Assembly: GCA_030740795.1 (NCBI GenBank)
Contig: JASLWO010000057.1
Coordinates: 1 to 44,735, forward strand
Length of the DNA stretch: 44,735 nucleotides
Origin: Acidimicrobiales bacterium
GTDB taxonomy: Bacteria > Actinomycetota > Acidimicrobiia > Acidimicrobiales > UBA8592
Direction of reading: 5' to 3'
Part shown: positions 37,209-41,768 of the stretch, piece after piece
Layout: every line of letters begins with the position of its first letter
How positions within the stretch are numbered: the first letter of the stretch is position 1
Made by a program: the position numbers and the translations under genes
Notes under the pieces: model-generated
Seen by the model: the letters and a program-made list of their open reading frames with translations, nothing else
The model's database searches: none
Told to the model about the DNA's origin: nothing

Positions 37209-38204
37209 TTAATTTGACGGCATTCCGTCAAATTCCACTGTTTTTATTCCCTTAGCAGTTACCCGATTTAAAAAACTAGTTGAATCAACTATGTTTGCCA
37301 CCCCGCCAGTAAAGGGGTCTATTAATGATTCCATCATCATTTCTGTAAGTGTTTGAACAACTATCGCTGCCGCTGAAGATGGTGGACTAACTGCCCCAAG
37401 GACCCGTGTAATTCGTTCATTTTCTAATCGTCCTCGAACTTCTACTCGGACCGCTCCTATGCCACCATCATTGTGTGGTGGGATTAGCATTGGAAGCCAG
37501 GAAGTAAATCGATCCTGTCGTGTAGCTGAAAGCCGAGACGTGATTCGAGAACTATTTGGAAATATTGTTTGTAGTAGCACCGCTTCCGGAAGAGCAGCCC
37601 GATAACAGTCTGAGCCTGCAATTGGCTCTGGAAACCAAACTAGCTCTCTTCCTGAACCACCTGGTCGACGTACCCATTCCCCTTCCCACCAATCTAGAGA
37701 AGGTCTTTTCATTGCCCGATGATGTTGCTTGGCGCAAGCAGGACCTCCAGTTCCATCTTTAGCAATGTGTATCTCATCAACAAAGTCAAATTCTTTAGCT
37801 GCAAACCGGGCAAGGGCACACGTTAAACCTGGAGAAAATCCTGCACCAGCAATAACCGAAGCATCATATTTCTCAGCTAAGGACTTCAGTTTTAATAATC
37901 CGACAACATCACTGATTCTGTCCGAGGTTGAAATAACAGATATCCCTTTTTTTATGGCTCGTTGCGCTACTTGTAAATGTTGCCCTGAAGGTGACGCAAT
38001 AACAAGAATTGATATATCTTCATCTTCTATTCTTGCCCCACTTGTTTGAGTAAAATTATGGTCAAGTTGATCTATTAAAGAAGCTGTTTTTGAAATATCC
38101 AAGTCATGTAAAATGATAGGGATCTTAACTTTCGCCGTACTAAACCGTTGAACTAATTGTGATCCAACTGCTCCTAATCCTAAGATTCCGATTGATGGTG
38201 TCAT
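37209..38204 (-). CDS. Saccharopine-dehydrogenase-like NAD(P)-binding protein
   Basis: A 331-residue oxidoreductase-like protein with an N-terminal Rossmann motif GLGAVG (GILGLGAVGSQLVQRF) and a saccharopine/Gfo-type continuation: ILVIASPSGQHLQVAQRAI, SVISTSDRISDV and AGAGFSPGLTCALARF. The C-terminal part has no recognised catalytic signature. An earlier in-frame ATG at 38234 would overlap the DLW-39-like gene by 25 nt; I prefer 38204, which leaves TAA-CAAGA-ATG between the genes. It is likely the last gene of the origin-proximal block operon. The reaction is unknown. Confidence 0.7.
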   Translation of the reverse strand: MTPSIGILGLGAVGSQLVQRFSTAKVKIPIILHDLDISKTASLIDQLDHNFTQTSGARIEDEDISILVIASPSGQHLQVAQRAIKKGISVISTSDRISDVVGLLKLKSLAEKYDASVIAGAGFSPGLTCALARFAAKEFDFVDEIHIAKDGTGGPACAKQHHRAMKRPSLDWWEGEWVRRPGGSGRELVWFPEPIAGSDCYRAALPEAVLLQTIFPNSSRITSRLSATRQDRFTSWLPMLIPPHNDGGIGAVRVEVRGRLENERITRVLGAVSPPSSAAAIVVQTLTEMMMESLIDPFTGGVANIVDSTSFLNRVTAKGIKTVEFDGMPSN

Positions 38205-38209
38205 TCTTG

Positions 38210-38338
38210 TTAATCTGTTTCCAGGTCCCGCCATCCGCCACTTTGTAACGGAACGGTACCCGATTCCCGTGCTTTGAGAATTACTGATATTGCAACGGCT
38301 CCCAACAGCGCTAGAAGACCTCTAAAAAATAATCTCAT
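38210..38338 (-). CDS. DLW-39-like single-pass microprotein
   Basis: A 42-residue protein read directly from the gap after tRNA-Ile. It begins MRLFFRGLLALLGAVAISVI, one membrane helix with a basic start, and ends SGGWRDLETD. Actinobacteria commonly encode a DLW-39 family protein of about this size just after gyrA, DUF3566 and tRNA-Ile/Ala, with a membrane helix and a D-L-W-type tail; here the order of W and DL is reversed (WRDL). Position and form support a distant member. The function of the family is unknown. The weak ribosome-binding site (TAGG) lies about 10 nt before the ATG. Confidence 0.6.
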   Translation of the reverse strand: MRLFFRGLLALLGAVAISVILKARESGTVPLQSGGWRDLETD

Positions 38339-38419
38339 CTACGTAACCTATTTTTGGTGAAAACAAACATGCTTTTGAATTTTACCCAGTATGAATCATT
38401 TTGAAAATTTGTTACTTTG

Positions 38420-38493
<74 letters not shown>

Positions 38494-38577: not shown

Positions 38578-39261
38578 TCAACGTACTCTGCGACGGCGAA
38601 GTCTTCTTGGCGGTGATGGACGCACTGTTTCTTCCTCAACCATTGTTATTCTCAGACCGCCTGTTAGGTCACTTATTAAATTAAAGATGAGGCACATTAA
38701 TACGTTCATTGTAGATCCAGCAATCGCTAGAACTAGCCCTCCGTAGGCATACCCTTTAAAGATTTGTTTCCCATCAAAATTGAAAGTGTCAAGAGCGAAT
38801 AGCTCCGTTATTAATGTTTCTAATTTTCCTACAGTTCCTGATGACTCAGCTACACCCCAAACCATAAAACCAGCGATTAGAAAGATTGCCCAAAGGCAAG
38901 CGTAAAAAAGAACTGAGATCTTTAGAACTGACCAAACTTCAATGTGGCGTACAATTCTTCTTACCCTCCTAGCCTGAAGTTTAACTCTTCTCCGTCTCTC
39001 AAAAATTGAAATTTTTCTTTGTTTCCTTGGACGAGCAGGCGGTGTTTCAAAATTCCCAAAGAATTTATTTTCAGCTTCTGTCGCGTTTGAATCCGGATAC
39101 GTTGTTTCTTGAACGCTGTTTTCTTCGTGACTCTCAACAAGGTCAACAGTTGATGTTTCAGGTTCCTCTATTAGAGGTTCCTCTGTATTGTCAACCATTT
39201 CATTATCTGCATCAACCATTAAGCGTATTGTAGATGAATGGTGGGGCTTTATGGATGGCAT
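38578..39261 (-). CDS. DUF3566 transmembrane protein
   Basis: A 227-residue membrane protein of the DUF3566 family found beside gyrA across actinobacteria. Order: an acidic, low-complexity N-terminus (about 1-65), a basic stretch (79-104, rich in Arg), membrane helices at about 113-137 and 172-197, the conserved SDLTGGLRITMVEEE (197-211) and an Arg-rich tail. The family's role is unknown. The ATG at 39261 or 39219 are both possible; neither has a strong ribosome-binding site. It lies 32 nt after gyrA on the same strand. Confidence 0.88.
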   Translation of the reverse strand: MPSIKPHHSSTIRLMVDADNEMVDNTEEPLIEEPETSTVDLVESHEENSVQETTYPDSNATEAENKFFGNFETPPARPRKQRKISIFERRRRVKLQARRVRRIVRHIEVWSVLKISVLFYACLWAIFLIAGFMVWGVAESSGTVGKLETLITELFALDTFNFDGKQIFKGYAYGGLVLAIAGSTMNVLMCLIFNLISDLTGGLRITMVEEETVRPSPPRRLRRRRVR

Positions 39262-39293: not shown

Positions 39294-41768
39294 TTACAAA
39301 TCAGAAGTTGTTTCTTCTAGTTCTTCAGCTTGTATAACTGGGGCGATTGCGGTTACTTGAACTCCTTCTTCAACAGCCATGAGTTTTACTCCTGTTGCGC
39401 TTCTTCCTTGTACGGATATCGAATCTACTTTCATTCTTATAATCACCCCGTTAGAGGAAATCATAAATACCTCATCATCGTCTCCTACAGCACGGCTAGC
39501 TACTACCTTGCCTCTATCTTCAGATAGTTTGATTCCTGTTACCCCTTGCCCCGCTCTATGTTTGGGGTTGAAATTCTCCATCTCTGTTCTTTTCCCAAAT
39601 CCTTTATCAGTAACTATTAAAAGAGTCTTTGCTTCTCTTGCGATACTCACAGCTACGACCTCATCTTCGCTTTTGAGTTTAATTCCGCGTACTCCTCCAG
39701 CTGATCGCCCCATTGGGCGAGCTTCTTTTTCATGAAATCTCATTACTTTTCCATTTGAACTTACAAGACAAATATCATCTTCTCCTGTTGTTGGAACAAC
39801 ACGAACTAATTCATCTCCGTCTTTAAGGTTGATAGCAATTAGCCCTTTTGATCGAGATTTATCATATTCTGTGAATTTTGTCTTTTTGACTTGTCCTCGT
39901 TTCGTTGCAAAAACTAAAAACCTGTTTGTTTCATAATCTCTAGTATCAATAACTGCTGCGACTTTTTCATCAGAAGATAGTTGCAAAAGGTTTACGATTG
40001 CTGTCCCTCGGGCGGTTCTTCCCATCGTGGGAATTTGATGAGTTTTTAAACGATAAACCTTTCCAAGGTTCGTGAAGAAAAGAAGATAGGCGTGAGCTGA
40101 TGTATGCAAAATTGTTGTAATCAGATCTTCGTCTTTAAGTGCGGCTCCTGCCACCCCTCTCCCCCCTCTTCCTTGACTTCTAAATTCATCACTAGATACT
40201 GTTTTGACATAACCGCCTGCGCTCAGGGAGAAAACAAGATCTTCGTCTTCTATCAAATCTTCTATTAAGAAATCCCCTGGATCAACAACGAGTTCTGTTC
40301 TCCGATCATTAGAAAATTCGTCACGAATCTCACTAAGTTCATCAATGATGATATTTCTCAAGATTTTGTCATCAGCGAGAATTTTTTGGAGTTCTAATAT
40401 GGATTCGGTTAGTTCAGCTACTTTTTCTTCTATTTGGTCTCTCCCTAAACGGGTTAAACGCCCTAGTTGCATGTCTAAAATGTGATTGGTTTGTAGTTCG
40501 CTGAATTCAAATGGTTCAGCCATTAACGATTCTCTGGCAGTTGCCCGGTCTTCGCTCGCCCTGATTGTTGCAATAATCTCATCAATCATTCCTATTGCTT
40601 TTAAAAGTCCTGTATTGATATGGAGTTCGTGTTCAGCTTTTTCAAGCCTGTATTCAGTTCTTCTCGTAACAATTTCAATTTGATGGTTTACCCAACATGT
40701 CAAAGCATCAAGAAGCGTCATTGTTCTAGGAACACCATCATCTAACGCAACCATATTTACGGAAAAAGAAGTTTGTAGTGGAGTCCCTTTGTAAAGCTGG
40801 TTCAAAATAACTAAGGCTGGCGCGTCTTTTTTGAGTTCAAAGACAAGCCGGGTTTTTCCTTTTGCTGATTCGTTTCTAATTAGCCGAATTCCGTCAAGTG
40901 CTTTTCTATCTACTAGATCTGCTGCCTTTTCCTCAATTGTTTCGACACTGGTTTGGTAGGGAATTTCAGTAATGACTATCTGATCGTATTTTCCGCCTTC
41001 AACTATTTCAGCTTTAGCTCTAACTTTAATAGACCCTTTCCCAGTCATATAGGCTTGATGAATACCAGAATGGCCAAGTATCTCTCCTCCTGTGGGAAAA
41101 TCCGGGCCTTTTATGTATTCCATAAGTTCTTTAATGGTTGCTTCTGGATTATTTATGAGATGTATAGCAGCATCAGCGACTTCTCGAAGATTGTGTGGAG
41201 GTATGTTGGTTGCCATTCCAACAGCAATCCCTTGGCCTCCGTTTACAAGAAGATTTGGAAACCGTGCTGGAAGAACTTTCGGTTCTTGTGACGAGCCATC
41301 GAAATTATCTAAAAAATCAACCGTTTCTTCATCTATTCCTTCCATCATTCTCATTGCTAATTCAGAAAGGCGGCTTTCTGTGTACCGCATCGCAGCAGCA
41401 CCATCATTTGGAGAACCGAAGTTTCCATGAGGGTCAATGAGTGGGTAGCGCAAAGACCATATTTGGCCCATGCGGACCAATGCTTCATATATAGCACTAT
41501 CGCCATGTGGGTGATAATGACCCATGACCTCACCAACGACTGTCGCACACTTTACATGTGATCGGTCAGGACGAACATTTGTGTCATACATCCCCCACAA
41601 AATGCGGCGGTGAACTGGTTTTAATCCATCTCTAGCGTCTGGCAAAGCGCGAGCAACAATGACCGACATTGCATAATCAAGAAAAGATTGTTCCATCTCT
41701 TGTTGTATTTCAACATCTTCAACTCCATCATTTCGTTCTTCTGGAGGTGAAATATCCGTATCGCTCAT
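39294..41768 (-). CDS. gyrA: DNA gyrase subunit A
   Basis: An 824-residue type IIA topoisomerase subunit that cuts and rejoins DNA with GyrB to introduce negative supercoils. Near the N-terminus it has YAMSVIVARALPDARDGLKP, the quinolone-resistance region GHYHPHGDSAIYEALVRM with the wild-type-like Ser, and the active-site Tyr in AAMRYTESR. The C-terminal beta-pinwheel has the gyrase-specific GyrA box QGRGGRG, which separates it from ParC, and repeated blades through residue 810. The tail is acidic. AAAGGAAG precedes the ATG, 17 nt after gyrB, so both are co-transcribed. Confidence 0.98.
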   Translation of the reverse strand: MSDTDISPPEERNDGVEDVEIQQEMEQSFLDYAMSVIVARALPDARDGLKPVHRRILWGMYDTNVRPDRSHVKCATVVGEVMGHYHPHGDSAIYEALVRMGQIWSLRYPLIDPHGNFGSPNDGAAAMRYTESRLSELAMRMMEGIDEETVDFLDNFDGSSQEPKVLPARFPNLLVNGGQGIAVGMATNIPPHNLREVADAAIHLINNPEATIKELMEYIKGPDFPTGGEILGHSGIHQAYMTGKGSIKVRAKAEIVEGGKYDQIVITEIPYQTSVETIEEKAADLVDRKALDGIRLIRNESAKGKTRLVFELKKDAPALVILNQLYKGTPLQTSFSVNMVALDDGVPRTMTLLDALTCWVNHQIEIVTRRTEYRLEKAEHELHINTGLLKAIGMIDEIIATIRASEDRATARESLMAEPFEFSELQTNHILDMQLGRLTRLGRDQIEEKVAELTESILELQKILADDKILRNIIIDELSEIRDEFSNDRRTELVVDPGDFLIEDLIEDEDLVFSLSAGGYVKTVSSDEFRSQGRGGRGVAGAALKDEDLITTILHTSAHAYLLFFTNLGKVYRLKTHQIPTMGRTARGTAIVNLLQLSSDEKVAAVIDTRDYETNRFLVFATKRGQVKKTKFTEYDKSRSKGLIAINLKDGDELVRVVPTTGEDDICLVSSNGKVMRFHEKEARPMGRSAGGVRGIKLKSEDEVVAVSIAREAKTLLIVTDKGFGKRTEMENFNPKHRAGQGVTGIKLSEDRGKVVASRAVGDDDEVFMISSNGVIIRMKVDSISVQGRSATGVKLMAVEEGVQVTAIAPVIQAEELEETTSDL

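Follow-up and report, generated by a model that had tools for sequence, protein, structure and literature searches.

A conserved microprotein with a predicted membrane helix and its neighbouring dehydrogenase gene at the gyrA–cofA locus of Acidimicrobiales

Introduction

The closest described counterpart of the microprotein treated here is DLW-39, which NCBI curates as a hypothetical equivalog (NF038356, actino_DLW39) and whose name we take to come from a D-L-W tail motif, the motif itself being visible in DLW-39 sequences. These are proteins of about 40 residues with a basic N terminus, a single hydrophobic stretch and a W-x-E tail, and in several lineages their gene is found after gyrA, a DUF3566 gene and a tRNA-Ile gene. 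The term DLW-39 occurs in no paper of the collection searched, and none of the papers listed for DUF3566, CofA, CwsA/ileT/Rv0007 or the gyrA/tRNA-Ile locus describes the present microprotein in its title or abstract opening.

The second system of interest is the neighbouring DUF3566 protein. CofA is a cofactor of PBP1a in Corynebacterium glutamicum, where it binds PBP1a at the transmembrane part and that enzyme requires it to accumulate stably (PMC7205459). It gives an example of an enzyme stabilised by a small membrane protein (PMC7205459); it resembles the microprotein in being small, in its membrane character (predicted for the microprotein) and in its locus, and differs from it in having two transmembrane domains in C. 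glutamicum and in belonging to a different family.

The DNA analysed is a stretch of 44,735 nucleotides from an Acidimicrobiales bacterium (assembly GCA_030740795.1, contig JASLWO010000057.1), referred to below as the window. A preliminary description had pointed to a DLW-39-like microprotein at its gyrA/tRNA-Ile locus and had called the lineage low in GC, which holds in a relative sense (44.1% GC in the window).

The microprotein and its locus

The features of the locus are the following.
38210..38338, minus strand: ORF of a 42-residue membrane microprotein (MIP), 42 codons plus stop, ATG at 38338 and TAA at 38210-38212; from the open frame, profile and purifying selection
38276..38320, minus strand: uncharged hydrophobic stretch of MIP, residues 7-21, core of the predicted helix; from AlphaFold2 and a charge-free run in 69/69 sequences
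38213..38239, minus strand: conserved C-terminal tail GGWRDLETD of MIP, residues 34-42; from alignment A1, spacing and synonymous codon variation
37209..38204, minus strand: partner dehydrogenase (OXR), 331 aa, start 5 nt after the MIP stop; from adjacency and a fold model
38419..38493, minus strand: tRNA-Ile (GAT), 80 nt upstream of MIP; from ARAGORN
38578..39261, minus strand: DUF3566 gene, cofA homologue; PF12089, E=2.3e-15
39294..41768, minus strand: ORF which we take, from its protein sequence, to be gyrA; relatives have a homologue of the translated ORF at the corresponding position

Read along the minus strand, the order is gyrA, cofA (DUF3566), tRNA-Ile, MIP and dehydrogenase. The MIP frame translates as MRLFFRGLLALLGAVAISVILKARESGTVPLQSGGWRDLETD followed by a stop, and the plus strand of 38210-38338 is interrupted by stops; the 42-residue microprotein that the preliminary description had proposed for these positions, with no strand given, is accordingly encoded on the minus strand. 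A search with this single sequence gave matches in 72/99 genomes at E<=10, the weakest of which look like chance and lie inside longer frames, and among the listed matches with E < 1e-5 the frame is open without stops in 18 of 18, that of the window included. Codons were compared in 12 sequences from the genus, one of them that of the window (L017, which has unread bases, was omitted): third positions vary in 39/42 codons and second positions in 15/42, the median pN/pS over 66 pairs is 0.335 and that of the window against its nearest relative is 0.10, and the tail residues G34, G35, L39, E40 and T41 are invariant while their codons vary. A profile built from A1, the alignment of 42 MIP sequences including that of the window, matched 170/248 genomes of the order at E<=0.01, or 164/248 once six weak matches (above 1e-4) were dropped. 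From the low pN/pS, the order-wide profile matches and the varying codons of fixed tail residues it follows that the amino acid sequence of MIP is under purifying selection and that the protein is very probably made; that MIP is a real protein is in our view close to certain. Stops in relatives or a tail without conservation had been named beforehand as counting against the microprotein, and neither was seen, since the frames are open and the tail is kept.

The AlphaFold2 model of MIP has a single helix spanning residues 2-26, followed by an extended tail with GGW at its centre (mean pLDDT 83.3, pTM 0.44), in keeping with the membrane helix and the tail SGGWRDLETD pointed out in the preliminary description; the tail is strongly conserved. 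Across the 69 sequences measured, a basic N terminus is followed by the uncharged stretch (12-16 residues in 69/69), a basic flank, in most cases a Gly/Pro linker and then the tryptophan, the last W standing 14-15 residues past the uncharged stretch in 69/69. Residues G35 and W36 are invariant in A1 and GGW is present in 67/69 sequences, and the number of residues after the W varies.

The placement of MIP at the gyrA/tRNA-Ile locus, in the exact place of DLW-39, was confirmed: the slot is the one used by DLW-39 in other actinobacteria, and homologues were found at the same locus in named relatives within the Acidimicrobiia. DUF3566 and tRNA-Ile upstream and the enzyme downstream, all on one strand, occur in 47 of the 69 MIP loci fetched, the others having one of them outside the stretch fetched or missing from it; the pair of MIP and enzyme stands without cofA or tRNA-Ile in 18/69 (about 1.5 kb was fetched on each side, and some loci are at contig ends), and in 3/69 the stretch contains tRNA-Ile and the dehydrogenase together with a tRNA-Ala further downstream. 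The genes of the DLW-39 proteins over the NF038356 cut-off in L073-L076 and L078 follow DUF3566 and are flanked by tRNA-Ile and tRNA-Ala; in the eight f83 loci (L065-L072) about 1 kb or more separates the DLW-39 gene and tRNA-Ile. Wherever the order is kept, then, the MIP slot is the DLW-39 slot, with the dehydrogenase gene placed behind MIP. Slot occupancy is not universal across the phylum. A survey around DUF3566 had tRNA-Ile in the stretch for 28/40 loci fetched, and 15 of these 28 hold a DLW-like or MIP-like ORF, six of the 15 belonging to the window's own class; by these criteria the other 12/28 had no DLW-like or MIP-like ORF, L111 among them ending just after the tRNA. One further survey locus of the same class, beyond the 15/28 (L099, genome G292), carries at 1303-1440 a diverged MIP-like ORF with the tail KGYRQLFPPEFK, in which W is replaced by Y, directly before a distant homologue of the enzyme.

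Several side observations concern the tRNA genes. In 8/69 loci MIP starts at -1 to 4 nt from the 3' terminus predicted for tRNA-Ile (L016, L025, L029, L037, L039, L050, L054 and L063), the same holds for the DLW-like protein of L117, and in L053 MIP starts 3 nt from a predicted tRNA-Arg; with the start codon at the tRNA 3' end, tRNA processing could release a leaderless mRNA for MIP and the enzyme. Additionally, three genomes of family f88 (L117, L118 and L119) encode, between tRNA-Ile and tRNA-Ala, short DLW-like proteins whose tails read W-H-T or W-H-V and depart from the usual DLW motif.

The downstream dehydrogenase

In the window a longer OXR frame is possible from 38234, that is, with a start inside MIP. 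In the relatives L002 and L005 the MIP stop stands in frame just upstream of the enzyme ATG, so that the enzyme there cannot begin inside MIP, and this supports the start at 38204 that had been assigned to the downstream gene. A search with OXR found it in 173/248 genomes of the order at E<=1e-20; counting strong MIP matches, both genes are present in 163 of the 248 genomes, MIP only in 1, the enzyme only in 10 and neither in 74. The sole genome with MIP only (G064) has it at a contig end. Among the ten with the enzyme only, the six f56 genomes and G040 were looked at (G068, G394 and G423 were left out): once fetched, the f56 genomes had a diverged MIP directly upstream in 6/6, and a true absence of MIP is rejected for these six. 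G040 (L227, reverse strand, 334-600 in the numbering of that strand) retains the tail GSGWRELSGPDLR ahead of the enzyme and shows no recognisable helix in this frame, which may represent a frameshift or a tail-only form.

The arrangement of the two genes is also constant. MIP comes first and the enzyme is adjacent on the same strand in 123/123 genomes compared, with gaps of 5-107 nt (median 17), and in seven further genomes, whose enzyme rows had earlier been taken for partial matches, adjacency is found in 7/7 with gaps of 14-441 nt; these come from a set of 149 of the genomes with listed MIP places, for 19 of which the place of the enzyme was absent from the rows used. When loci of named GTDB genomes were fetched by the enzyme alone, MIP was upstream in 75/76, mostly at 0-83 nt and, for enzyme matches that start at residue 19 or beyond, at 120-478 nt; the lone exception (L201) lies on a contig whose first base is 12 nt ahead of the enzyme match. 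Some of the 76 named loci are the same genomes as the earlier loci, so the two adjacency counts overlap, and as the genomes are related by descent neither presence nor adjacency counts independent events. Fusion of the two genes was considered and rejected: none occurs among the listed open frames of the profile search, the longest of which (268 aa) could not span both. The adjacency to the enzyme is near-obligate, and this pairing, which the preliminary description had missed, is the tightest association of MIP. We think it likely that MIP and the enzyme are functional partners; their adjacency and joint loss might instead have a non-functional cause, a single deletion of neighbouring genes.

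Regarding the identity of the enzyme, Pfam matches among OXR members are mainly of Rossmann type (GFO_IDH_MocA in 33/49, the saccharopine dehydrogenase NADP domain in 20/49). The structure model of OXR (pLDDT 91.8) aligns with carboxyspermidine dehydrogenase (8h52; Z 34.2 over 321/331 residues), L-lysine dehydrogenase (3abi; Z 31.4 over 302/331) and saccharopine reductase (Z 25.6 over 314/331), and the best Foldseek match has E=8.2e-22. By its predicted structure OXR has the fold of this superfamily over nearly its whole length; its identity to the fold matches is about 15%, and the four enzymes scanned did not approach the NCBIfam equivalog cut-offs. OXR is unlikely to have a transmembrane helix itself, as its most hydrophobic 19-residue segment scores 1.36, below what is typical of such helices. 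Beyond the class, a search of the phylum sample with the enzyme profile gave 17 genomes with matches, all of them weaker and partial (26/149 in all, at E<=1e-8). Family f66, also outside the class, has a weaker enzyme relative that is convergent with cofA at a distance of about 0.4-0.5 kb (G129, contig C109; G155, contig C189).

Relation to DLW-39

Alignment to the DLW-39 profile, proposed earlier as a check, gave no match for the window protein: NF038356 (curated cut-off 24 bits) does not match the window MIP at E<=10 or anything in the window's whole own genome at E<=0.001, and of the 42 members of A1 it matches one, at E=0.048. Membership of MIP in NF038356 is therefore rejected by the model's own cut-off. 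The same model matches 19/23 proteins of a DLW-like comparison set at E<=10, a control that is partly circular because 15/23 come from loci fetched by NF038356 itself; the set is mixed, joining loci found by NF038356 with small hydrophobic slot ORFs with W in the tail that were picked by eye, and one of its loci (L087) has neither cofA nor tRNA-Ile in its stretch. Over 296 genomes of the phylum NF038356 places 18 genomes above its cut-off, with many sub-threshold matches inside longer frames, and it matches 9/14 control genomes below the cut-off. Four of the loci above it (L077, L079, L081 and L082) have neither cofA nor tRNA-Ile in their stretch, and the protein of L079 has the helix and lacks the W tail.

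What stands of the proposed likeness to DLW-39 is the slot and a similar architecture. Like DLW-39, MIP has some 40 residues, a basic N terminus, a single hydrophobic stretch and a W-x-E tail, and it follows gyrA, DUF3566 and tRNA-Ile; unlike DLW-39, it has a Gly/Pro-rich linker, carries GGW in place of D-L-W (67/69 MIP in a test for the motif) and is followed by a dehydrogenase gene, and NF038356 misses the window and matches a single relative weakly. The statement that the order of the motif differs was misleading, as both groups mostly read W-x-E/D when aligned on the W (59/69 MIP, 18/23 DLW-like). A basic N terminus, an uncharged helix core of 12-18 residues and a W some 13-15 residues later are common to the 69 MIP and 23 DLW-like proteins, with median helix-to-W spacings of 15 and 13 respectively (DLW-like quartiles 13 and 13, range 8-16). 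Intermediate forms also exist, in a set of five proteins from other lineages that includes two with W-Q-E-L at the slot (L112 and L127).

Profile comparisons were made with hhalign. MIP against all 23 DLW-like proteins gave E=4.8e-5 (a score reached by 1/100 tail-shuffled controls), A1 against A2, the MIP and DLW-like comparison, gave E=8.1e-5 with a probability of 61%, and a set of six proteins (L080, L083, L091, L092, L094 and L125) gave E=7.1e-4. The intermediate set matches MIP at E=4.3e-5 (2/100 tail-shuffled controls) and the strict set, made up of eight DLW-39 proteins with six over the NF038356 cut-off, at E=1.9e-7. Under a full-length DLW model the 69 MIP as a group score above the other ORFs of the same loci (medians 2.6 vs -1.8 bits, p ~9e-31), and under the MIP model 20/23 DLW-like proteins fall in the top 41 of 570 scored ORFs, the hydrophobic segment contributing in both cases. 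The shared W-x-E/D, the similar helix-to-W spacing and the intermediate forms suggest distant homology, and we regard MIP as probably a distant homologue of DLW-39, a judgement drawn from sequence and position.

The likeness might also be convergent, two unrelated small membrane proteins having come to occupy one slot. Consistent with this, the direct comparison of MIP with the strict set gives E=0.011, equalled by 20/100 tail-shuffled controls; a tail-only model separating the microproteins from other ORFs has an AUC of 0.87, matched by 9/100 shuffled tails and by 14/100 with the W column held fixed; and the best scorer under the MIP model is an unrelated ORF of L117 (E=6.1e-4), above every DLW-like protein. 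The tail-only tests thus do not establish the homology, which is plausible and supported by position rather than proven by sequence. Convergence has against it the common slot after tRNA-Ile, the shared architecture and spacing, and an intermediate set that matches both sides, and it appears rather doubtful. On the preferred reading of distant homology, the extension of the DLW-39 family put forward in the preliminary description would apply to a wider family than the one NF038356 recognises.

If MIP and DLW-39 are separate descendants of one protein, that protein would have been a membrane microprotein encoded between tRNA-Ile and tRNA-Ala, beside gyrA and cofA, in some ancestor inside the phylum, and the enzyme gene would have entered the slot on the line to Acidimicrobiia. 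The DLW-39-like proteins of other lineages have a W-x-E tail and, in the stretches fetched, no such enzyme behind them, and the tail would therefore originally have had another, older partner, for which CofA is the obvious candidate.

Possible functions

MIP may be a small bitopic membrane protein that holds its N-terminal helix in the membrane and whose extended tail, centred on GGW-x-x-L, would dock the NAD(P)-dependent dehydrogenase encoded downstream, both proteins being made from one short operon and probably translated as a coupled two-gene unit. The constant spacing from helix to W, the conserved tail, the near-obligate pairing in cis and an enzyme without a membrane segment fit such docking at the membrane. 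On the other side, no MIP-enzyme fusions occur among the listed frames, and the net charge beside the helix, both flanks being basic, is higher on the N side in 32/69 sequences, higher on the C side in 11/69 and equal in 26/69, a balance that leans to a cytoplasmic N terminus and against a cytoplasmic tail. MIP probably anchors or assists its enzyme; for docking through the tail in particular we would give slightly under an even chance. The best explanation as a whole, a bitopic MIP that docks or assists its enzyme and derives from a microprotein of the cofA locus, is likewise offered tentatively.

Alternatively, MIP could serve the CofA–class A PBP complex of wall synthesis as an accessory, a role that DLW-39 might have in other actinobacteria, the enzyme being a conserved bystander in the operon. 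CofA, tRNA-Ile and a small membrane protein do occur together in several lineages of the phylum, DUF3566 (181/248 genomes of the order) is present in 156/164 genomes with a strong MIP match, and in C. glutamicum CofA contacts the transmembrane part of PBP1a, whose accumulation depends on it; the available part of that source names no small partner of CofA (PMC7205459). Nevertheless, MIP tracks the enzyme more closely than it tracks cofA: 16 genomes have cofA and lack both MIP and enzyme (two of them, G056 and G466, with a weak MIP match, and some of the 16 being incomplete), all three are absent from 58, and the pair is kept away from cofA, as in G034, where MIP lies about 39 kb from cofA with the enzyme beside it (L059). 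The tie between MIP and enzyme is therefore tighter than that of either with cofA, and the role in the wall complex seems unlikely.

Docking or assistance of the enzyme may also be compared with a role as a cis-acting leader peptide, whose translation, or stalling at the tail, would control translation of the enzyme. MIP does stand upstream and in cis wherever the two genes were compared, mostly with a short gap, and its invariant residues sit in the C-terminal tail. However, the hydrophobic stretch is conserved too and small DLW-39 genes such as those of L073-L076 and L078 precede a tRNA gene (tRNA-Ala), which make a leader peptide less likely; additionally, the length of the tail after the W varies, and in the window about 21 residues follow the hydrophobic stretch, less than the 30-40 residues of the ribosomal tunnel, so that this stretch would still be outside the membrane when the ribosome reads the tail. 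We consider the leader peptide improbable. That the ORF is spurious, or its region kept as an RNA or DNA signal, as its shortness and its closeness to a tRNA might suggest, is scarcely credible given the low pN/pS and strong third-position variation, the synonymous variation within the tail and the frame free of stops in all 18 listed matches below 1e-5.

Concluding remarks

MIP looks like a distant, uncatalogued relative of the DLW-39 microproteins, which suggests that the curated model NF038356 may cover just one end of a wider family, at a position next to a known cell-wall cofactor. On the most far-reaching reading, which we rate as a long shot, MIP would be an obligate subunit, the membrane one, of a new dehydrogenase with two components that works where CofA and PBP synthesise the wall and delivers amino acid or amine chemistry of the lysine, DAP or spermidine type at the growing wall; much of the phylum would then use DLW-39 as its module for docking at the wall site, with the dehydrogenase as one cargo. 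The new result is the dehydrogenase partner, which makes the function of MIP testable: with a constant enzyme partner of recognisable fold, a so far unexplained microprotein next to gyrA and cofA becomes one half of a pair that experiments can address.
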